Source of the DNA: Bradyrhizobium quebecense
Lineage (GTDB): Bacteria > Pseudomonadota > Alphaproteobacteria > Rhizobiales > Xanthobacteraceae
Length of the DNA stretch: 64,000 bases
Assembly: GCF_013373795.3 (NCBI RefSeq)
Contig: NZ_CP088022.1
Coordinates: forward strand, 3,224,001-3,288,000
Reading direction: 5' to 3'
Positions 10,896-22,195 of this stretch are shown piece after piece. A program made the position numbers and the translations under genes. The notes below the pieces were generated by a model. The model saw only the letters and a program-made list of their open reading frames with translations. It was not told the DNA's origin and searched no databases. Within the stretch, counting starts at the first letter, position 1. Each line of letters starts with the position of its first letter.

Positions 10896-12011
<1,116 letters not shown>

Positions 12012-12016
12012 GGGCG

Positions 12017-12653
12017 CTACACGGGTCCAGCCGACGCGGCTGGACGTGGACCGCAGAGCGGGCGCAGCGCCTCGCGCTCGTCCTGCGACAGCACCCTCAG
12101 CGGGTAGATCGGCTCATTTGTCTCGCGCTTGAAGAACGGATGCGGCCAGGCCTTCCCGTGCAGGCGCCAGCCCAACACCTTGCCGATCACGCAGGATCAG
12201 CGGCAGGTTGAAGCCGGTCGATCCTTTCGGAGCTTCGCCGATCGCATATTTGCCGAGGATTGCGCCGGTTGGCTTGCCGAACACGTCGTCCACGCGCACC
12301 GCGCCGCCGTCGAAGGCCTGCGCCACGATTCCGACGAACGGGACGGCAGGTGTCAGCGAGTTGCCCACCGGCGAATTGCAGCAGGTGGTGTGCCATCGGT
12401 ACAGCCCTTTGGGCGTCAGCCGCAGCCCGGCGATCTTGTCATGCCCCTGCACGAAACTGAGCGACGCCGGGGCGACCTGGACGATGTCGGTCCCGCCGTG
12501 GACATCGAGCAGGTCGGCCCGGCCAACCCGATGCATGAACGCCTGGCAGTCGTCGCAGTAGCAGACGACGCGATTGGCGGCCGTCGGCGCGGCGTTCGTG
12601 ACCACGCCTCGAACCTCGCCACAGCGGCAGCGCAACCCGATCCGTGTGCCCAT
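12017..12653 (-). pseudogene. GFA/DUF6151 family protein, frameshifted
   Basis: From an ATG at 12653 with a GGGGGA site, the frame encodes a GFA-like zinc-binding domain: LRCRCGEVRG then VVCYCDDCQAF, with later WHTTCCNSPVGN. The family includes glutathione-dependent formaldehyde-activating-like proteins and DUF6151. At about 12190 the frame is lost (LPLILR then an unrelated tail ending at 12114). The shifted frame continues the expected protein: VIGKVLGWRLHGKAWPHPFF, ETNEPIYPLRVLSQDERE, then PLCGPRPAASAGPV and a stop at 12017-12019. A gain of one base or loss of two near CTGCGTGATC would explain it. Either a recent mutation or a sequence error. Confidence 0.8.
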
Positions 12654-12809
12654 ATGTCCCCCGCCGTCACACAATCTGCAGCCAACACCGAGGCGGGCGC
12701 GTCCGGCCGCCGAATCGCCGGAATATTTCGGCTAGTTAATGTTCGCGCGGACTTGGCAGGCGCGCCTCGTGCTCCCATGTCTGCCCGGGACTTTCATCGG
12801 AGGTTGGTC

Positions 12810-13367
12810 ATGTCCTACGGCAATGACGGTGGCACCTGGCGCAGGGAAGCCTGGCGCAACGACGGCGGCGTTCCCCCGCATGCGTTCGATCCGTTGATGC
12901 AGCCGGAACTGTTCCGCGGCGTGCTGACGCGGCGGGTGTTCGCGTTCCTGATCGACCTCTTCGTGCTGTCGGTGCCGGTGATCCTGGCGGTGGTCTTCAT
13001 CGCGATCTTCGGCATCGTCACGCTCGGCCTCGGCTGGGCGCTGTTCTGGCTGGTGTCGCCCGCTTCGATCGTCTGGGCCATTGTCTATTACGGCGCCTCG
13101 ATCGGCGGGCAGCACTCGGCCACGCTTGGCATGCGCATGATGGATCTGGAACTGCGCACCTGGTACGGCGCGCGCGGCTATTTCGTGCTCGGCGCCACCC
13201 ACGCGGTGCTGTTCTGGGTGACGATCTCGTTCCTGTCGCCGCTGGTGCTGCTGGTCGGACTCCTCAACGGCCGCCGCCGGCTGCTGCACGACATCATCCT
13301 CGGAACCGTCATGATCAACAGCTCGGTCCGGACCCAGGTCACCCCGGCCGCGCGGGCCTCTTATTAG
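12810..13367 (+). CDS. RDD family membrane protein
   Basis: A 185-residue inner-membrane protein. The RDD domain begins near residue 35 (RGVLTRRVFAFLIDLFVLSV: the Arg and two-Asp-type motif in helix 1), followed by further helices (GLGWALFWLVSPASIVWAIV and YFVLGATHAVLFWVTISFL) and the GMRMMDLELR motif. The start at 12810 follows a CGGAGG site; an upstream ATG at 12777 is less well placed. It lies upstream of bpt on the same strand. RDD proteins are often of unknown function, some acting in ion exchange. Confidence 0.85.
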   Translation: MSYGNDGGTWRREAWRNDGGVPPHAFDPLMQPELFRGVLTRRVFAFLIDLFVLSVPVILAVVFIAIFGIVTLGLGWALFWLVSPASIVWAIVYYGASIGGQHSATLGMRMMDLELRTWYGARGYFVLGATHAVLFWVTISFLSPLVLLVGLLNGRRRLLHDIILGTVMINSSVRTQVTPAARASY

Positions 13368-13453
13368 GCCCGCCTAAACCAATTGACCGTTAGCCTCCGG
13401 GGGGCGATGCTAACTCGGCTGCCTGTATTGTATGTGGAGCCCGACGATCAGAC

Positions 13454-14230
13454 GTGACCCAGCACTCGCGTGATACCCCCCAGTTCTATCTGACGGCGCC
13501 CTCACCCTGCCCCTATCTGCCGGGCCGGCATGAGCGGAAGGTTTTTACGCATCTGGTTGGCGACAAAGCGGGCGATCTCAACGACTTGCTGACCCATGGC
13601 GGCTTCCGCCGAAGCCAGTCGATCGCCTATCGCCCGGCCTGCGACGCCTGCCGGGCCTGCGTCTCGGTCCGGGTGGTCGCCAACGAATTCCGCCCCTCCC
13701 GCAACTTCCGCAAGGTGCTGGCCCGCAACGCCGACATCATCGGCGAGCAGCGCACGGCGGTGCCGACCTCCGAGCAATATTCGGTCTTCCGCGCCTATCT
13801 CGACCGCCGCCACCGCAACGGCGGCATGGCCGACATGACCGTGCTGGACTACGCGATGATGGTCGAGGACAGCCATGTCGAGACCCGGATCATCGAGTAC
13901 CGCAAGCGCAATGCCGACAGCGCCATCACCGGCCGCGGCGACGAGCTGATGGCGGTGGCGCTGACCGACGTGCTCAGCGACGGGCTGTCGATGGTCTATT
14001 CGTTCTTCGAGCCGGGGCTTGAGGCCCGCTCGCTCGGCACCTTCATGATCCTCGACCACATCGCCCGCGCCCGCCGGCAGGGCCTGCCCTACGTCTATCT
14101 CGGCTACTGGATCGAGGGCTCCAAGAAGATGGACTACAAGGGCCGCTTCCTGCCGCAGCAGCGACTCGCGCCGTCGGGCTGGCTGCGCGTCGACGCGTCA
14201 GGCGAGGCGCTGGCCGAGCCGCAGGACTAG
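13454..14230 (+). CDS. bpt: Arginyl/leucyl-tRNA--protein transferase (ATE1-like, Bpt)
   Basis: A 258-residue GNAT-fold enzyme that transfers an amino acid (Leu in bacterial Bpt) from tRNA to N-terminal Asp or Glu, marking proteins for ClpS/ClpAP degradation in the N-degron pathway. Family motifs are visible: [17 protein letters not shown] near the start, the Cys cluster [19 protein letters not shown], and [18 protein letters not shown] near the C-terminus. Start is a GTG at 13454. It follows the RDD gene by 86 bases and may share its promoter. Confidence 0.93.
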
Positions 14231-14250
14231 CGCATCTTCAGTCAGGCGCT

Positions 14251-15624
14251 CTAGGTGCCGAAGATCGTATCGATCAGCAGCTTCACGTTTAGGATCACGA
14301 TCAGGCCGGCGACGATCCATGCTGCCACCGCAACGGGGCGCGAAATCGCGAACGCACCCATCTTGCGCTTGTCGGACACGAAGCGCACCAGCGGGATCAC
14401 CGCGAACGGCAGCTGCATCGACAGCACGACCTGGCTGAACACCAGCAGCTGCGCGGTGCCGCTCTCGCCATAGACCGCGGCGACCACGATGACCGGAACG
14501 ATCGCGATGCCGCGCGTCACCAGCCGCTGCAGCCAGTCCGGCAGCCGTAAATCGAGAAAGCCCTGCATCACAATCTGGCCGGCCAGCGTCGCCGTCACCG
14601 TCGAGTTGAGGCCCGATGCCAGCAGCGCCACGGCGAACAGCGTCGAGGCAATTCCGAGCCCGAGCAGCGGCGACAGCAGCTCGAAGGCCTGATCAATCTC
14701 GGCGACATCAGAGTGGCCGCTCTTGTGGAAGGTCGCGGCCGCCAGCACCAGGATCGCGGCGTTGACGAACAGCGCCAGCATCAGGGCGATGGTGGAGTCG
14801 GTGGTCGCCCATTTGATCGCATCGCGCCGGCCCTCCTCGGTGCGCGGATAGGCACGGGTCTGCACGATCGAGGAGTGCAGATAGAGGTTATGCGGCATCA
14901 CGGTGGCGCCGATGATGCCGATCGCGATGTAGAGCATCTCCGGATTGGTGACGATCTCGCGCGAGGGCATGAAGCCGCCGATCACGCCGGCAATCGGCGG
15001 CGCGGCGGCGGCGATCTGGACCACGAAGCAGACCGCGATGACTATCAGGAGCCCGATCACGAAGGCCTCGAGGAAACGGAAGCCGCGGTTCATCAGGAGC
15101 AGCAGCAGGAATGCATCGAGCGCCGCAAGCAGCGCGCCGCCGATCAGGGGAATGCCGAACAATAGCTTGAGCGCGATCGCGGTGCCGATCACCTCGGCGA
15201 GGTCGCAGGCGATGATCGCGGCCTCGCAGGCGAGCCACAGCAGCAAATTCACCGGCCGCGAATAGGTCGCCCGGCAGGCCTGCGCCAAGTCGCAGTCGGT
15301 GGCGATGCCAAGCCGGGCCGAAAGCGCCTGCAGCAGGATCGCCATCAGGTTGGAGAGTAAGATGACCGACAGCAGCGTGTAGCCAAACTTCGATCCGCCC
15401 GCGAGATCGGTCGCCCAATTGCCGGGGTCCATATAGCCGACCGAGACCAGATAGCCCGGCCCCGCGAAGGCCAGCAGCCGCCGCCACCACACGCCTGTGC
15501 TCGGCACCGCAACGGTCGCGTTCACCTCGGGCAGGCTGCGCGCATGCCCGGCGTCGCCCCGCCAGCCATCTGGCACGGTATCGGCAACAGAAACAGGAGA
15601 CATTTCAGGGGTGCGAGCGTCCAT
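14251..15624 (-). CDS. mntH: Nramp-type manganese(II) transporter MntH
   Basis: A 457-residue polytopic protein of the Nramp family that imports Mn(II) with protons. The metal-site motifs are DPGNW (residues 66-70) in helix 1 and [13 protein letters not shown] in helix 6, with [15 protein letters not shown] near helix 9. The N-terminal 45 residues are polar and variable. Upstream, at 15655-15677, there are three TGCAAC/TGCATC hexamers resembling the Fur/Mur operator. Work on B. japonicum showed mntH is repressed by Mn through the Fur (Mur) protein, so manganese control here is likely. The ATG at 15624 is used; one at 15603 is also possible. Confidence 0.95.
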
Positions 15625-15654
15625 CCGTAAAGCATGACCGATCCTTCCCGTTAT

Positions 15655-15677
15655 TGCAACTCATTTGCAACTGCATC
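15655..15677. promoter_or_regulatory. Putative Mur/Fur operator for mntH
   Basis: Three direct-repeat hexamers, TGCAAC at 15655, TGCAAC at 15666 and TGCATC at 15672, lie about 30-55 bases before the mntH start. B. japonicum Fur/Mur is known to bind imperfect direct hexamers of the TGCATC type at the irr and mntH promoters. The match is by eye; no binding evidence exists for this copy. Confidence 0.55.
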
Positions 15678-15711
15678 TAGGCTCACGAAAATGATACCGA
15701 CTGCCCGCCTT

Positions 15712-15736
15712 GTAAAGTACTGAGGAAGTGCTTTAC
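15712..15736. promoter_or_regulatory. Inverted repeat between mntH and the pspA unit
   Basis: GTAAAG-N-ACT, a 5-base spacer, then AGT-N-CTTTAC form an exactly centred palindrome of 25 bases. It lies in the divergent promoter region, directly before the TnpB-like frame. It looks like a regulator operator, but I cannot name the protein. Confidence 0.5.
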
Positions 15737-15745
15737 GTTGGATGC

Positions 15746-16228
15746 ATGATCAAGCTGCCCGTCGAGATGCCAACCGCAACGCTGCGCTACGCCCTCGCCC
15801 CTGACCCGTCGGGCATCGAGGCGATCGAGGCGACCTTTGCGGCCTATGACCGGATGATGGCGATCCTGGCCGAGGTCGCGCCGGTCGGCGCCAACCTGGT
15901 CTCGCTGCACGCCCAGGCCTACGAGAAGATCCGCAAGGAGACCGGCCTGCCCGCACGGCTGGTGACGCTCGGCCTGCGCGACCGCGCCAACTACATCGCA
16001 GGCGCCGCCGTCCGCCGGATACCGCTCGACGACAAGTTGTTTGCGATCAAGGGCCCAACTTCACTGACCATTAGCACTGTCAGCGGACGCGTCTTGGTGC
16101 CGTTCGACGTGCCGGGATATGTCTCGGGCTGGGAAAGCCCCTTCCCGGCGCATTTGATCTCGGATGGACGCGGCTACGAAATCCACATCGCCGTCAAATC
16201 GAAATCAGCACAACCGGAGGAGAAGACC
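15746..16228 (+). pseudogene. TnpB-like N-terminal lobe, in frame with pspA
   Basis: These 161 codons resemble the N-terminal (WED/REC) half of IS605-type TnpB proteins: YDRMMAILAEVAPVGANL, then LHAQAYEKIRKETGLPARLV, SLTISTVSGRVLVPFDV and AHLISDGRGYEIHIAV. In TnpB the RuvC nuclease domain (GVDLG start) would follow at this point. Here the sequence instead runs, with no stop, through KSKSAQPEEKT into the Met of PspA. All nuclease residues are absent, and no transposon end or guide-RNA-like element was recognised. It may be an insertion relic whose stop was lost, or a real extended first domain of PspA. The pspA ribosome site is embedded in its last codons. Confidence 0.6.
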
Positions 16229-16876
16229 ATGCTTCACGAAGGCATCCTTGCGCGCATGGGCCGGCTTCTTGCCGCCATCGCAAGCCAGACCATCGACAAC
16301 GTCGAGAGCAACAACAAGGTCGCGCTGGTCAAGCAGGCGATCCGCGAGATCGACGCCGGCGCCGACGAAGCGCGCTACGCGCTCGGCAAGTCGCGCGCCG
16401 AGGAATTCCGCTTGAAGAGGCGGCGCGAAGAACTGGATACCGAAACGGCGAACCTCAACGAGAAGATCCGTCACGCACTTGCGGAAAGTCGCGAGGATCT
16501 CGCGCGCGCCGGTGTCGCACGGCAAATTGACCTGGAGTCGCAGGTGATCGCGCTGGAACGCGCGATGGATTTCATCGAGCTCGAGATCGACGAGCAGACC
16601 AAGGCGCTGCAAGCCATGCTCGGCGCGCGCCGCGAGGCAGAGGCGCGATTAGCCGATCTCGAACAAAGTCTGATCCGCGAGGCCAAGGACGAAACCAGCC
16701 GGGGCCCATCGACGACCAATACATTGAGTGCCGAACGCGCCATGGCGGCGATCGCCCGGGTCACCGGTGTCCCCGCCTCCAGCGTGCTCGGCGACAAGGA
16801 GCTTGACGAACTCGATCGCCTGCACCGCGAAAAGGAAATCGCGGCGCGGCTTGAAAGGATCAAGTCAGAAAAATGA
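16229..16876 (+). CDS. pspA: PspA/IM30 family membrane-stress protein
   Basis: A 215-residue coiled-coil protein of the PspA/IM30/Vipp1 (ESCRT-III-like) family, which polymerises on the inner face of the membrane during envelope stress. The visible signature is LARMGRLLAAIASQTIDNVE at the N-terminus, then long charged helices (LKRRREELDTETANLNEKI, LERAMDFIELEIDEQTKAL). The ATG at 16229 has an ideal CGGAGGAGAAGACC ribosome site. The frame is also open upstream into a TnpB-like segment, so a longer 377-residue product from 15746 is possible. The stop overlaps the next start by four bases, so it is coupled to yqiJ and yqiK. Confidence 0.88.
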   Translation: MLHEGILARMGRLLAAIASQTIDNVESNNKVALVKQAIREIDAGADEARYALGKSRAEEFRLKRRREELDTETANLNEKIRHALAESREDLARAGVARQIDLESQVIALERAMDFIELEIDEQTKALQAMLGARREAEARLADLEQSLIREAKDETSRGPSTTNTLSAERAMAAIARVTGVPASSVLGDKELDELDRLHREKEIAARLERIKSEK

Positions 16877-17535
16877 GTGCAGTTGGCGACATTCTGCTCG
16901 CCCCGGACGTACGGCCCTTCGCGGTCGCGGCTGCGATCATGGTGGCACTTGGCGGTATCGAGCTGCTGACCACCATGGTCGGACTTTCGATCAGCGAACT
17001 CGTCGGCAAGGATTTCGCGGTCGAGGCCGAGAGCCACAACGCTCTCAGTGGCCTGTTTCTCTGGATCAACGCCGGGCGGCTTCCCCTCCTGATCCTGATC
17101 ATCCTGATACTTGGCATATTCTCGATCGGAGGCTTCCTGCTTCAGGGACTGGCGCATGCCGCAGGCACCGCCATTCCTGTCTCGATTGCCGCCGTGATTG
17201 CCGCCGCCGGCAGCATCCCTGTCATCAGAAATGCGAGCCGCGGCCTCGCCCACATCATTCCGCGCGACGAGAGCTATGCGGTCAACGACAGCGACTTTGT
17301 CGGCAAGGTCGCAACCGTGTCGGTCGGCCCGCTCGATCAGGGCCTCCCCGGCAGGGTCCGTCTCAAGGATGTCTTCGGCAACTGGCACACCGTGTCGGCG
17401 CGGGCCAGCGCAGAGTCCGAGGCATTGCCGGTCGGCGCCAGCGTGTTGCTGGTCGACCGCGATGCCAAAGGATTCATTGCGATCGCCGCTCCTTCCGACC
17501 TCATTGAACAACAACAATCTTCCAACAGGGCATAA
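16873..17535 (+). CDS. yqiJ: YqiJ-like OB-fold membrane protein
   Basis: A 220-residue inner-membrane protein. Hydrophobic segments lie near residues 15-35 (FAVAAAIMVALGGIELLTTM), 75-95 (LPLLILIILILGIFSIGG) and 100-120. They are followed by a soluble OB-fold of the NfeD type (FVGKVATVSVGPLDQGLPGR and GNWHTVSARA). YqiJ proteins occur next to the flotillin YqiK, as here, and probably assist its assembly in membrane microdomains. It overlaps the pspA stop by four bases and ends three bases before yqiK. The role is inferred from the conserved gene pair. Confidence 0.85.
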   Translation: MSAVGDILLAPDVRPFAVAAAIMVALGGIELLTTMVGLSISELVGKDFAVEAESHNALSGLFLWINAGRLPLLILIILILGIFSIGGFLLQGLAHAAGTAIPVSIAAVIAAAGSIPVIRNASRGLAHIIPRDESYAVNDSDFVGKVATVSVGPLDQGLPGRVRLKDVFGNWHTVSARASAESEALPVGASVLLVDRDAKGFIAIAAPSDLIEQQQSSNRA

Positions 17536-17538
17536 CAT

Positions 17539-19293
17539 ATGTGGGAACTTGCTGTACCCGTCGCCATTGGCGTCCTCGCTATCCTCGTCATTGGCCTGCT
17601 TTTCGCAAAACTCTACAAGCGCTCGACGCGCGATGAGGCCTATGTGCGCACCGGCCTCGGCGGTCAGAAGGTGGTGCTCGACGGCGGCTCGCTCGTGCTG
17701 CCGATCTTCCACTCCACCGCCGCGGTGAACCTGAAGACGCTGCGGCTCGAGGTCGCGCGTGGTGGCCCGGACTCGCTGATCACCAAGGACCGCATGCGTG
17801 TCGATATCGGCGCCGAGTTCTATCTGCGCGTCAAACCCGACTCTTCGTCGATCGCGCTGGCCGCGCAGACGCTCGGCAACCGCACCAATGACGCGGCCGA
17901 GCTCCGCGAGCTGGTCGAGGCCAAGTTCGTCGACGGCCTGCGCTCGGTCGCCGCGACCATGAACCTCGAGGAATTGCAGGAGCAGCGCGCGACCTTCGTC
18001 AAGGCGGTGCAGGACGCGGTCGGCGCCGACATCCAGAACAACGGTCTCGAGCTCGAGTCGGTGTCGCTGACGCGGCTCGACCAGAGCGACATCAAGCATT
18101 TCAACCCGAGCAATTTCTTCGACGCGCACGGCCTCACCACGTTGACCAAGATCACCAAGGAGCGTGAGCAGGAGCGCAACCAGATCGTCCGCACCACCGA
18201 GGTCAATATCGCGCAACAGGACCTGGTGGCGCGGCAAACCACGCTGACGATCGAGAGCACCAAGCGCGAGGCCGAGCTGGCACAGCAGCGCGACATCGCC
18301 AACAAGACCGCCGCGATGCGCGCGCAGACGGCGCAGGTCGAACAGACCGCGTTGCAGAACGAAGCCGAATACCGCATCCAGCAGGAGCTCGCGGTCGCCA
18401 ACAAGCAGACCGAGGCCAACCAGGCCCGCGATACCCGCAAGATCGAGGCCGATCTCGCCGTGAAGCGCCGCACCACCGAAACCGACCGCGAGCTGCAGAT
18501 CGTGGCGCAGGAGGCCGCGATCGCGGTCGCGACCAAGAGCAAGGAGCAGTCGGAAGCCCAGACCATCGCCGAGACCGCACGCGCACTTGCGATTGCAGCC
18601 GAGGAAAAGGTCACCACCGCCCGCGCCACCGAGGTCGCCGAGCGCGACAAGATCATCAACGTGATCGCGGCGCGCAAGGTTGCCGAGACCAACGCAATGC
18701 CGATCACCGTTATGGCGGAAGCCGAAAAACAGGCTGCGGCCAACAAGGCCGAGGCCACCAACGTGCTGGCGAAAGCCGACGCCAACGCCGCCACCACCCG
18801 CGCCGCCGGCGTCAAGGCGCTCGGCCAGGCGGAAGCCGAGGTCGCAACCTTGAAGGCGGAAGCGCGTAACAAGCTGAGCGCCGACATGATCGCCTACGAT
18901 CTCAACCTCGCGCGGATCAACGTGATCCCGAGCGCGCTCGCCGAGGCGGTGAAGCCGATCGAGAAGATCTCCGACATCCGGATCTTCGACACCGGCAGCA
19001 TGCTCGGCCGCGGCGGCGCCAACGGCCATGCCAACGGCAATGGCGGCCTCGGGCTCGGCGACGGCCTCGCCGCGCAATTGCTGTCGGTTTCGGCGTTCAA
19101 GCCGATGATCGACAAGATCCTCGCGGAGGCAGGCTTCCCGGCCGGCCCCGACGCGCTCACCAGCCTGACCAGCGCGCTGGCGCAGCGCAAGACGGAGGTC
19201 GCCGAAACACCGGCAGTGAGCGTCGAAAGCGCGCCAACCGCTCTGGTCGGGACCATCAGCGGCCAACTTACTCCGGCTGCCAAACCGCTGTGA
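17539..19293 (+). CDS. yqiK: Flotillin-like protein YqiK
   Basis: A 584-residue SPFH/flotillin protein. An N-terminal membrane anchor (VPVAIGVLAILVIGLLFAKL) is followed by the SPFH domain (about residues 30-200: VRTGLGGQKVVLDGGSLVL, then VDIGAEFYLRVKPDS). A long Ala/Glu-rich coiled coil (about 215-450, with many TEA and AEK repeats) and a Gly-rich C-terminal linker come next. Flotillins scaffold membrane microdomains and respond to envelope stress. Its place after pspA and yqiJ suggests a joint membrane-integrity system. Three bases separate it from yqiJ, so translation is probably coupled. Confidence 0.9.
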   Translation: MWELAVPVAIGVLAILVIGLLFAKLYKRSTRDEAYVRTGLGGQKVVLDGGSLVLPIFHSTAAVNLKTLRLEVARGGPDSLITKDRMRVDIGAEFYLRVKPDSSSIALAAQTLGNRTNDAAELRELVEAKFVDGLRSVAATMNLEELQEQRATFVKAVQDAVGADIQNNGLELESVSLTRLDQSDIKHFNPSNFFDAHGLTTLTKITKEREQERNQIVRTTEVNIAQQDLVARQTTLTIESTKREAELAQQRDIANKTAAMRAQTAQVEQTALQNEAEYRIQQELAVANKQTEANQARDTRKIEADLAVKRRTTETDRELQIVAQEAAIAVATKSKEQSEAQTIAETARALAIAAEEKVTTARATEVAERDKIINVIAARKVAETNAMPITVMAEAEKQAAANKAEATNVLAKADANAATTRAAGVKALGQAEAEVATLKAEARNKLSADMIAYDLNLARINVIPSALAEAVKPIEKISDIRIFDTGSMLGRGGANGHANGNGGLGLGDGLAAQLLSVSAFKPMIDKILAEAGFPAGPDALTSLTSALAQRKTEVAETPAVSVESAPTALVGTISGQLTPAAKPL

Positions 19294-19323
19294 AGCGGTC
19301 TGACGGCAGATGCGCTTCACCTC

Positions 19324-19435
19324 TCCCGCTTGCGGGGGAGGTCGGATCGCATCGAAGATGCGATCCGGGTGGGCGCGCTCTCCACGATGCGACTCGCGGA
19401 TAGACCCCCACCCTAACCCTCCCCCGCAAGCGGGA
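19324..19435. repeat. Palindromic intergenic repeat
   Basis: Perfect 18-base arms (19324-19341 and 19418-19435, sequence TCCCGCTTGCGGGGGAGG and its complement) enclose a perfect 10-base hairpin at 19344-19366 (GGATCGCATC, loop GAA, GATGCGATCC). I recognise this sequence type as a frequent intergenic repeat in Bradyrhizobium. It lies after yqiK and could stabilise or end the transcript. Confidence 0.8.
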
Positions 19436-19480
19436 ACGTACGTCCGATGCGGTTGCAGAGCGAATTTCGTTGTCCAACGA

Positions 19481-19512
19481 AAAGCCCGCCTCTCACGGCG
19501 GGCTTTGTTTTT
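19481..19512 (+). terminator. Rho-independent terminator after the yqiK operon
   Basis: AAAGCCCGCC, a six-base loop and GGCGGGCTTT, followed by GTTTTT. A strong stem and T-run close the pspA-yqiJ-yqiK unit. Confidence 0.85.
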
Positions 19513-19593
19513 GGCGTTGTCGGGAAACGGGTGGGATCGGGCGTCTTCCAACCACACACTATGGCCAGATCGAATTTCCCTGAGGATTCTGCC

Positions 19594-20835
19594 ATGTCCG
19601 CCGATACGCCGCGCCTGCCCGCCACCTTCAACCGCCTGGCCTGGTCCAACCTCGCCGCGCAATCGGCCGAGCAGATTGCGCTTGCGGCCGCGCCCATCGT
19701 CGCCGTGCTGGTGCTCGGCGTCGGCGAAGGCCAGACCGGCCTGTTGCAGACCGCGCTGACGCTGCCGTTCATCCTGTTTGCGATTCCCGCAGGCCTGCTG
19801 GCTGACCGCGTGTCGCGGCGCTGGGTGATGGCGGGCTCCGAGGCGCTGCGCGCCGCCGCCCTCGCCGCGATCCTGCTGTTGTTGTGGTTCGGCGCGATGA
19901 CCTTGCCGCTGCTCGCTTTGCTCGGCTTCATCGCAGTCTGCGGCACGGTTGCCTACAGCGTCGCAGCACCTGCGCTCGTCCCGTCGCTGGTGACCTCGCA
20001 GCAATTACCGGCCGCGAATGCCCGTATCGAACTTGCGCGCACCGTCGCTTTCGCCAGCGGACCCGCGCTCGGCGGCGTGCTGGTCGGCTGGGTCGGCGCT
20101 GCGCCGGCATTCGGCTTTGCCGCGGCGCTGTCGGCGATCGCGGTCGTGCTGCTCGCCGGCATCTACGAGCCGGCACGCCGGCCTGCCCCGCGACGTCATC
20201 CGATGCAGGACATCAAGGAAGGCGCTGCCTTCGTGATGCATCACGCCTTGCTGCGGCCGGTGTTCATCACCCAGTTCATCTTCAACACTGCGTCCTTCCT
20301 GCTGCTCGCCGTGTTCGTGCCGTATGCGGTGCGCCATCTCGGGCTCAGCGCGACCGGCGTCGGTACGACGCTCGCGATGTACGGGGTCGGCATGGTGGTC
20401 GGCGCGCTGTTCGCAACCCGCGTGATGAAGCGGCTGGCGTTCGGCACCGTGATCGGGCTCGGCCCGGTCACCGGTCTCGTGGCCTCACTCGTGATGGCGC
20501 TGACCACCTGGATTGCGACGCCGCTGCTCGCGGGCCTCGGCTTTTTCCTGCTCGGTGTCGGCCCGATCCTGTGGGTGATCTCGACCACCACGCTGCGGCA
20601 ATCGGTGACGCCGCCGTCGCTGCTCGGCCGCGTCTCCGCGATCAATATCATGAGCTACGGCGCCCGCCCGCTCGGCTCCGCGCTCGGCGCCGTCGTCGGT
20701 GGCCTCTACGGCGCTGAAGCCTGCCTCTACCTCGCGGCCGCGATCTTCGCTGCCCAGGCGCTGGTAATCCTGATGTCGCCCGCAGTGTCGCTCAGGCGTC
20801 AGCCCGACATGGTCGGCGAACCCGCGCGCTGCTGA
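19594..20835 (+). CDS. MFS transporter, EntS-like exporter
   Basis: A 413-residue protein with 12 predicted membrane segments and the MFS_3/EntS arrangement. It has the Gly-rich first helix pair, the motif GLLADRVSRRWVM between helices 2 and 3 (a variant of the MFS loop motif GxxADRxGRR), and a central loop rich in Arg and Pro (EPARRPAPRRHPMQDIKEG). Members export siderophores, drugs or other small molecules. The start at 19594 follows GAGG at good spacing; the longer frame from 19447 runs through the terminator and is not used. The substrate is unknown. Confidence 0.85.
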   Translation: MSADTPRLPATFNRLAWSNLAAQSAEQIALAAAPIVAVLVLGVGEGQTGLLQTALTLPFILFAIPAGLLADRVSRRWVMAGSEALRAAALAAILLLLWFGAMTLPLLALLGFIAVCGTVAYSVAAPALVPSLVTSQQLPAANARIELARTVAFASGPALGGVLVGWVGAAPAFGFAAALSAIAVVLLAGIYEPARRPAPRRHPMQDIKEGAAFVMHHALLRPVFITQFIFNTASFLLLAVFVPYAVRHLGLSATGVGTTLAMYGVGMVVGALFATRVMKRLAFGTVIGLGPVTGLVASLVMALTTWIATPLLAGLGFFLLGVGPILWVISTTTLRQSVTPPSLLGRVSAINIMSYGARPLGSALGAVVGGLYGAEACLYLAAAIFAAQALVILMSPAVSLRRQPDMVGEPARC

Positions 20836-20847
20836 ACCGCCCCTCAA

Positions 20848-20931
20848 CGTCATTGCGAGCGAAGCGAAGCAATCCATTCCCCCGCTTGTGGGGACATGGA
20901 TTGCTTCGTCGCTGTGCTCCTCGCAATGACG
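20848..20931. repeat. Palindromic intergenic repeat (CGTCATTGCGAG type)
   Basis: Outer arms CGTCATTGCGAG (20848-20859) and CTCGCAATGACG (20920-20931), and inner arms GAAGCAATCCAT (20866-20877) and ATGGATTGCTTC (20896-20907), form a long interrupted hairpin between two convergent genes. From memory this is one of the commonest intergenic repeats in Bradyrhizobium and Rhodopseudomonas. It could act as a two-way terminator. Confidence 0.85.
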
Positions 20932-20941
20932 GGGAGAGAGA

Positions 20942-22195
20942 TCAGCTCGCCAGGTACCGTTCATATTTGCCGCCGACGACCTCGTCGACGGTAACGGCCG
21001 GATCCAGCGTATAGAGATCCTGGGCATGGCTGATGCCGCGCAAGACGAAGCGGCCGGTGGAGACCAGATAGTTGCGGCCGGCGGCGTCGATGCCGGTGCG
21101 GAAATCGGTCGAGGTCAGCAGTTCGCGGTCGACCGAAGCGCACATCGAGGCGATCCGGCTGACCTCGTTGACGGCGGGCCCGACCACCGTGAAGTCCAGC
21201 CGGTCCTCGCTGCCGATATTGCCATAGAAGACCTCACCGACATGGAGGCCGACATAGGCCGTGGTGGTCGGCCGGCCCTCGTTCTCGCGGCGATCGTTCA
21301 GCACGCGGATGTTATGGCGGAATCTGTACTCGGCGCGCAACGCCGCGCGCCTGGCGCTTGCCATGTTCTCGCTGGTGAACATCGCCAGCACGCCGTCGCC
21401 GATCAGTTTCAGCACCTCGCCACCGGCATCATGGATCGCATCGATCGAGGCCTGCGCGTAGTCGTTGAGGAACGGAATGATCTCGTCCGGGCCGATGCGC
21501 TCGCTGATCGCGGTCGAGCCGCGCACGTCGGAATACCACAGCACGGCCTTGATCTTCTCGGTGATGCCGCGCTGCATGCGCCCGCGCAGCACCTGCTCCG
21601 CCGTCTCGCGGCCGAGATAGACCCGTCCGAGCGTGCGGGCGATCTCGACCTGGGCGGCCGACTTGATCGCGAGCCCGAGCACCGGCACCAGGTCGCGCAG
21701 CGCCGACATATGGTTCTCGTCGAAGCCGTCCGAACGGCGGGTGGTGTAGTAGGAGTAGAAGCAGTCCATCTCGCCGATCGTGCCGGCCTCGCCGAAGCGG
21801 TGCACGAACGCGGCGAAATGCTTGTGGCCCTTCTCGGCGAGGTCGCCGATCATCGAAAAATCGTGCGAGCCGTTGAGATCGATCACCATCTCGTCATGGC
21901 CGTTTTCGAGCATGTGATGGAACGCCGACCGCCGCCAGTTCTGGCTGGCCTCGCCGCTGCTGGTCGAGCCGTATTCGAAGATGTCGGCCTCGTTGCTCTC
22001 GCCGTCGTTCCAGCGGAAGCCGCGGCCCTCGAAGATCGGATGCAGGGTGTCGATGAAGACGATCGCCCGCGACAGCGGCATGCCGGCGGCCCGGCAGCGC
22101 TCGCAGAAGCCGCGCAGCAGGTCGTTTTCCGGCAGGCCGGTCAGACCCTGGCGGACCAGCCAATTCATCAGGCGCAAACGGGGCGTCAGTTCCAT
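20942..22195 (-). CDS. Class III adenylate/guanylate cyclase
   Basis: A 417-residue protein that probably makes cAMP (or cGMP) from the NTP. The C-terminal cyclase domain begins near residue 215: LWYSDVRGSTAISERIG holds the first metal Asp, EVLKLIGDGVLAMF the second, and DFTVVGPAVNEVSRIA the family signature. The N-terminal 200 residues (with FRWNDGESNEADIFEYGSTS) form a variable sensor-like region without membrane segments. The start at 22195 begins the conserved part (MELTPRLRLMNWLV); a Met at 22273 is also possible. No obvious partner gene is adjacent. Confidence 0.88.
   Translation of the reverse strand: MELTPRLRLMNWLVRQGLTGLPENDLLRGFCERCRAAGMPLSRAIVFIDTLHPIFEGRGFRWNDGESNEADIFEYGSTSSGEASQNWRRSAFHHMLENGHDEMVIDLNGSHDFSMIGDLAEKGHKHFAAFVHRFGEAGTIGEMDCFYSYYTTRRSDGFDENHMSALRDLVPVLGLAIKSAAQVEIARTLGRVYLGRETAEQVLRGRMQRGITEKIKAVLWYSDVRGSTAISERIGPDEIIPFLNDYAQASIDAIHDAGGEVLKLIGDGVLAMFTSENMASARRAALRAEYRFRHNIRVLNDRRENEGRPTTTAYVGLHVGEVFYGNIGSEDRLDFTVVGPAVNEVSRIASMCASVDRELLTSTDFRTGIDAAGRNYLVSTGRFVLRGISHAQDLYTLDPAVTVDEVVGGKYERYLAS

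Follow-up and report, generated by a model that had tools for sequence, protein, structure and literature searches.

A TnpB-derived WED/REC lobe fused to PspA in Alphaproteobacteria, a candidate guide-free regulator of its own operon

Introduction

Domestication of TnpB, the protein of IS200/IS605 elements, is known to yield RNA-guided proteins of two kinds, nucleases (Cas12) and repressors (TldR). TldRs combine a mutated RuvC domain with a guide RNA, are tied to host genes and act at promoters (PMC13418256).

A second group of related systems is built on the membrane-stress protein PspA. In E. coli, PspA holds PspF, a separate AAA+ activator. Elsewhere, PspA is encoded in operons with YqiJ and flotillin proteins and a CesT/Tir-like partner (PMC11237479). 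Unusual architectures make up less than 2% of PspA proteins in the same survey of PSP systems, those named being PspA repeats, NlpC/P60 and PspAA, with none that includes TnpB; the word 'transposase' is absent from its main text (PMC11237479). A limited literature search found no title on a TnpB-PspA fusion protein, which is weak evidence of absence.

Here we describe a protein that has features of each of these systems. It is encoded in a stretch of 64,000 nucleotides from Bradyrhizobium quebecense (contig NZ_CP088022.1, positions 3,224,001 to 3,288,000; hereafter the window), where a TnpB-like lobe is joined to PspA. The lobe shares with the TnpBs of ISDra2 and of the Thermus, Meiothermus and Rhodothermus type a first WED strand, REC helices and further WED strands, in the same order, but it has neither RuvC nor zinc ribbon, no guide RNA was found, and it forms one chain with PspA, encoded in a host operon. 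Like TldR (PMC13418256), it appears to descend from a TnpB that was domesticated and became associated with host genes, and it would probably act at a promoter as well; unlike TldR, it has lost the whole nuclease half, and its specificity appears to be borne by the protein. With PspA/IM30 systems it has in common the PF04012 domain and an operon of the stress type that also encodes YqiJ and flotillin proteins, whereas the regulator would be part of the PspA chain and not a separate protein such as PspF. The operon partners are those of the CesT/Tir-PspA-YqiJ-flotillin operons (PMC11237479), except that the TnpB-derived lobe replaces the CesT/Tir-like partner and belongs to the same chain as PspA.

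Results

The fused frame and its operon

The open reading frame runs on the + strand from an ATG at 15746 to a stop codon ending at 16876, and no stop separates the TnpB-like lobe from PspA. An earlier note on this DNA had described the same frame, with a long form of 377 residues; the frame stands, while the length counted the stop codon in and is 376 residues. Residues 166-291 match PspA_IM30 (PF04012; E 1.3e-10, 41.7 bits for a cut-off of 33.9), and residues 1-161, searched alone, match no Pfam family at E <= 10. Profile, predicted structure and dN/dS support a WED and REC lobe without RuvC at 15746..16228 (+), encoding residues 1-161; PF04012 and alignment place the PspA/IM30 domain, with a possible 215-residue short product from its own ATG, at 16229..16876 (+). 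Two genes follow: yqiJ (16873..17535, +), which overlaps the pspA stop and encodes an OB-fold membrane protein (YqiJ_N and YqiJ_OB; PF21001, PF07290), and yqiK (17539..19293, +), which encodes an SPFH/flotillin protein (Band_7 and Flot; PF01145, PF15975). These downstream proteins confirm that the fusion heads a PspA-YqiJ-YqiK operon.

The long frame could also start from a GTG at 15728; we prefer the ATG at 15746, the point at which alignment with homologues begins. To judge from open reading frames and Pfam, the genes around the fusion look host-type. The same genome has a second, higher-scoring PspA at 5521085, no second lobe at E <= 10 and no TnpB detected by PF01385 or TIGR01766. The full-length predicted model shows long helices (pTM 0.41), with a placement of the lobe relative to the coiled coil that is not reliable. 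Upstream, a divergent gene (14251-15624), presumably for an Nramp-type manganese transporter, is preceded by TTGCAACTCATTTGCAACTGCA at 15654-15675, which we take to resemble a MUR box.

Kinship of the lobe with TnpB

In profile-profile comparison, lobe columns 14-161 align with TnpB at a probability of 98 and E 2.1e-13. The match ends directly before the RuvC-I motif, and the lobe indeed stops where the nuclease domain should begin, as had been proposed from the sequence. Of 30 column-shuffled controls none scored above 19.3, against 94.2 for the real comparison in a rerun. The predicted structure of the lobe also matches the TnpB WED/REC lobe, and the likeness is visible by eye in an LH...Y...R...GL(S/P)A(Q/R) stretch and a T..GR strand. 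Profile and structure comparisons thus both uphold the relationship first noticed.

Pfam, NCBIfam, PHROGs and PDB returned nothing significant for the lobe; HTH_OrfB_IS605 was touched by two of 17 lobes (best E 0.11), and a tblastn search of phages at E <= 1 gave no match. Among plasmids, tblastn retrieved 11 PspA-type fusions first and then 13 other records, nine of them annotated as TnpB at E values of 0.2 to 9 each, six of these being Thermus thermophilus plasmids. The lobe profile has no significant match to ISDra2 TnpB alone, and nor does a profile of Thermus-type TnpB. The lack of significant single-sequence matches in Pfam, NCBIfam and PDB, together with a best Foldseek E of only 2.1e-3, would suit a convergent origin, an OB barrel with inserted helices that came to look like TnpB without descent. 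We consider convergence very improbable, since the profile match is colinear over 148 columns and stands well clear of the shuffled controls, and since TnpB is the annotation of most of the non-PspA plasmid records, weak as their E values are.

The nuclease half is missing from the fusion protein: only PF04012 exceeds the Pfam cut-off, the frame passes from the lobe to PspA, and a zinc ribbon (TNB) is not detected by PF07282 or PF01385 at E <= 10. Homology, predicted structure and conservation identify the N-terminal part as the TAM-reading WED and REC lobe of a TnpB, domesticated and deprived of its RuvC and zinc-ribbon half.

A stand-alone lobe of the same kind was met outside this family. 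THECO_RS19725 of the Thermobacillus composti plasmid pTHECO01 (L145:2504-3034) is a TnpB-like WED/REC lobe of 176 residues. At its end it shares bases with the beginning of an S-layer-homology gene, and it aligns with the lobe family at an hhalign probability of 96; it is possibly a second, separate domestication.

Distribution and selection

Among 31 near genomes, the whole protein has matches in 12, each belonging to the same genus. The lobe was matched in 15 of 297 genomes of the order, 4 of 289 of the class, 8 of 76 and 4 of 17 of two other orders, and 10 of 199 of one more family, each count including the genome at the centre of its sample. Holders include Bradyrhizobium and Rhizobium (among the best 80 of 151 places) and further Methylobacterium/Methylorubrum, Agrobacterium, Shinella and Bosea. 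The fusion gene was followed by OB-fold and flotillin-domain genes in all six plasmid regions inspected. A locus whose record is entitled Frankia sp. RB7 (L082) carries a Bradyrhizobium-like lobe with 60% identity, and the name of that record may be wrong.

We assembled 142 loci (12 + 97 + 7 + 26, some from the same genome) with 127 distinct lobes, which were reduced to 43 representatives at 90% identity. A frame of at least 340 residues spans the lobe in 140 loci and in 125 of the distinct lobes. Relatives with a stop between the two parts were absent from the 142 loci save two exceptions of another kind: L195, in which the lobe lies in a frame of 185 residues followed by yqiJ-yqiK and PspA is absent, and L205, in which the match begins 27 bases from the contig end. 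In 18 pairs, dN/dS was 0.09-0.17 for the lobe and 0.045-0.165 for PspA, the latter being clearly lower in some pairs.

The earlier note had left a choice between a domesticated lobe and an insertion relic whose stop was lost. TnpB genes are mobile and their fragments common, and a decayed, useless fragment could by accident lie in frame with pspA. This is contradicted by purifying selection on the lobe and by its wide distribution, to which the near-constant long frame and the conserved internal start and inverted repeat described below may be added, and a relic is hardly credible. The same observations support domestication, which, judged from these sequences, is old in the Alphaproteobacteria.

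A candidate internal start for PspA

The ribosome site of pspA had been placed inside the last TnpB-like codons, and this proved correct: GGAGGAG (16216..16222, +) lies there, separated by 6 nt from the internal ATG (16229). Of 41 representatives, 40 have a Shine-Dalgarno-like motif, defined as any of nine strings located 4-15 nt before the start, ahead of PspA, compared with 9 of 210 other in-frame ATGs. The sole representative without it, L204, has no Met near the PspA start. The residues encoded by the motif vary (PEEKT in the window, QKETT in L107, QKEQT in L157), so the ribosome motif seems to be kept as DNA. The idea of two products, of 376 and 215 residues, gains support from this internal site, the short one being predicted.

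An inverted repeat before the long start

An inverted repeat of the form AAAGYAC-N7-GTGCTTT precedes the long start codon in the window and most relatives. In the window it reads AAAGTAC-N7-GTGCTTT (15714..15734) and forms a putative operator. A candidate -35 box, TTGTAA (15710..15715, +), overlaps its left arm; of the 43 representatives, 37 have a TTG within the 6 nt that precede the repeat. A candidate -10 box picked by eye, TACGTT (15734..15739, +), lies 6 bp before the ATG and would make the long mRNA leaderless. A scan for the sigma-70 consensus lists no + strand promoter at the repeat, which counts against the regulatory reading proposed below.

Conservation was assessed with a symmetric rule applied across loci. 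In the 7-7-7 arrangement with AA..TT ends, seven, six and five of the seven positions are paired in 29, 11 and 3 of the 43 representatives, respectively. Repeats of this type with at least five pairs are thus found in 43/43, versus 1/43 stretches located 600 nt further upstream and 2/43 shuffles; with AAA..TTT ends and at least six pairs, the corresponding counts are 38/43, 0/43 and 0/43. The weak repeats (5/7; L106, L158 and L186) count against that reading too. The first in-frame start codon lies 10-12 nt after the repeat in 31 of the 43, the rule having chosen a nearer or farther start in the other 12. Throughout the 9.17 Mb genome of the window, the pattern occurs with at most one mismatch at this place only; a reversed control pattern gave 2 and 1, few places thus being expected by chance as well, and the single site shows only the absence of a wide regulon.

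Two variations were observed. Second-clade Bradyrhizobium loci, L006-L012 among them, have a third half-site, AGTGCTTT, immediately after the repeat and just before the ATG. In L111, L202 and L204 (family f42), the repeat is AAAACAC..GTGTTTT and the lobe retains Arg71; position 4 of the repeat may be read by a different lobe residue in these loci.

Covariation of residue 71 with the repeat

At position 5 of the repeat, most loci have C on one arm or both, and the others have G or T. This base follows residue 71, which lies in the third lobe helix (residues 70-82, in REC; 15953..15991, +) and is Arg in the window (codon 15956-15958). The 43 representatives comprise 30 with Arg71 and C, 12 with Gln71 and no C, and one, L044, in which Arg71 faces T on both arms and which counts against the association; for the 127 lobes the numbers are 111, 15 and 1. 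Residue 71 ranks first of the 376 lobe and PspA columns in sequence-weighted mutual information with position 5 (0.910 bits), the next column being the variable residue 4 (0.875 bits). Divided by column entropy, the value is 0.940, and at most 0.389 in the other 14 columns listed. With an unweighted symmetric score over 317 columns, residue 71 reaches 0.847 and the next, residue 263, 0.579.

Phylogeny tempers this result. In a tree built without column 71, whose deep forks are unresolved, the residue changes three times and the base four times. Starred, well-supported branches give two independent pairs, and all branches together give three; in both pairs on starred branches, residue and base shift in the same direction, and a sign test gives p 0.5, two pairs being too few for a test. 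When a random trait was simulated on this tree, 26 of 400 draws had a column that scored as well, so the covariation alone corresponds to p of about 0.065. The link gains weight because a single multiple alignment places residue 71 on F77 of ISDra2 TnpB, and F77 and its neighbour K76 touch TAM bases (PMC10097598). It would amount to a one-residue code, Arg71 reading C:G and Gln71 reading G:C or T:A. We give an even chance to a guide-free transcription factor that derives from the TAM-reading half of TnpB, uses such a code and combines membrane-stress sensor and repressor in one chain; the REC helix, which formerly licensed cutting guided by RNA, would now read the operator through its own contacts with DNA.

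DNA, RNA or protein as the partner of the lobe

The N-terminal part had also been described as an RNA-binding-type lobe. Indeed, the TnpB WED domain contacts omega-RNA (PMC10097598), and TldRs, which are TnpBs domesticated without nuclease activity, retain guide RNAs (PMC13418256); the lobe could accordingly bind an omega-RNA-like molecule or its own mRNA and regulate as TldR does, the repeat belonging elsewhere. The omega-RNA scaffold of ISDra2 TnpB, though, is held mainly by WED and RuvC (PMC10097598), and RuvC is absent here. An Rfam scan of 12000-21000, which covers described RNA families, found none at gathering score; at E <= 1 it gave five matches, all below that score, the best (mir-598, E 0.0015) being taken as chance. 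Without an Rfam match at gathering score and without the main partner of WED in holding omega-RNA, RNA binding is not supported. It is also at odds with the covariation of residue 71 with a DNA base, and we judge a still RNA-guided lobe to be quite unlikely. The evidence points instead to the DNA-reading (TAM) side of the lobe.

Alternatively, the lobe might have lost the binding of nucleic acids and form a PspA head of a protein-binding or chaperone-like kind, taking the part that the CesT/Tir partners play in other PspA operons; a separate regulator from elsewhere in the genome would then read the repeat. The existence of PspA operons with YqiJ, flotillin and a CesT/Tir-like partner (PMC11237479) favours such a head, as does the nearly neutral charge of the window lobe (18 K+R, 17 D+E), which counts against DNA binding. 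Against it stands, besides the first rank of residue 71 among all columns, the distribution of the repeat, for which lobe-free sister operons provide a comparison.

These operons were sought with a PspA-only profile across 385 genomes of the class, 32 of which were matched. The six best places (at least 213 bits) have frames of 386-409 residues, and the next nine (93-143 bits) have frames of 228-304 residues. In L159-L164 and L167, a gene of about 170-190 residues (172-190 in the six maps inspected by eye) precedes the lobe-free pspA, in the place of the lobe, and yqiJ- and yqiK-like frames follow it in L159-L163 and L167 (by eye). A pattern for the small gene found it in seven of nine lobe-free loci, and not in L165 and L166. 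None of these seven operons has AAAG.AC-N7-GT.CTTT in the 150 nt before the small gene; TGTAT/GCATAC-like repeats are seen by eye in L160, L161, L163 and L164. By eye, the small gene looks like a ribbon-helix-helix regulator; searches for such a family gave no match in Pfam (four proteins), NCBIfam (six) or PDB (a profile of six), and hhalign against one CopG-type protein was not significant. Conversely, the PspA-free lobe-yqiJ-yqiK locus L195 (family f89) keeps a perfect AAAGCAC repeat. As far as sequence comparison can tell, the repeat goes with the lobe and not with the operon, and a purely protein-binding head is unlikely.

Discussion

We propose that the lobe is a guide-free, sequence-specific DNA module which reads the repeat in its own promoter and represses the operon, as part of a stress switch made of lobe and PspA. 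Our analysis gives this reading a probability of roughly 0.58. One lobe would bind each arm of the inverted repeat, by protein-DNA contact without a guide, and the self-assembling PspA part would pair two lobes. Binding would cover the promoter and so repress pspA-yqiJ-yqiK. A stressed membrane would then draw PspA away, the lobe would leave the operator and the operon would be turned on, a step suggested by analogy with the hold of PspA on PspF in E. coli. Lobe-free PspA made from the internal ribosome site would carry out the membrane work.

Nuclease-dead domesticated TnpB is known in the form of TldR; here the DNA-reading half is all that is left, attached to a membrane-stress protein and retained across several alphaproteobacterial families. 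If the operator is truly bound without RNA, a fold for TAM/PAM reading can serve by itself as a transcription factor, and with this family would come a natural, testable residue-to-base code for TAM specificity. Membrane stress would also have a short path to the control of its own operon.
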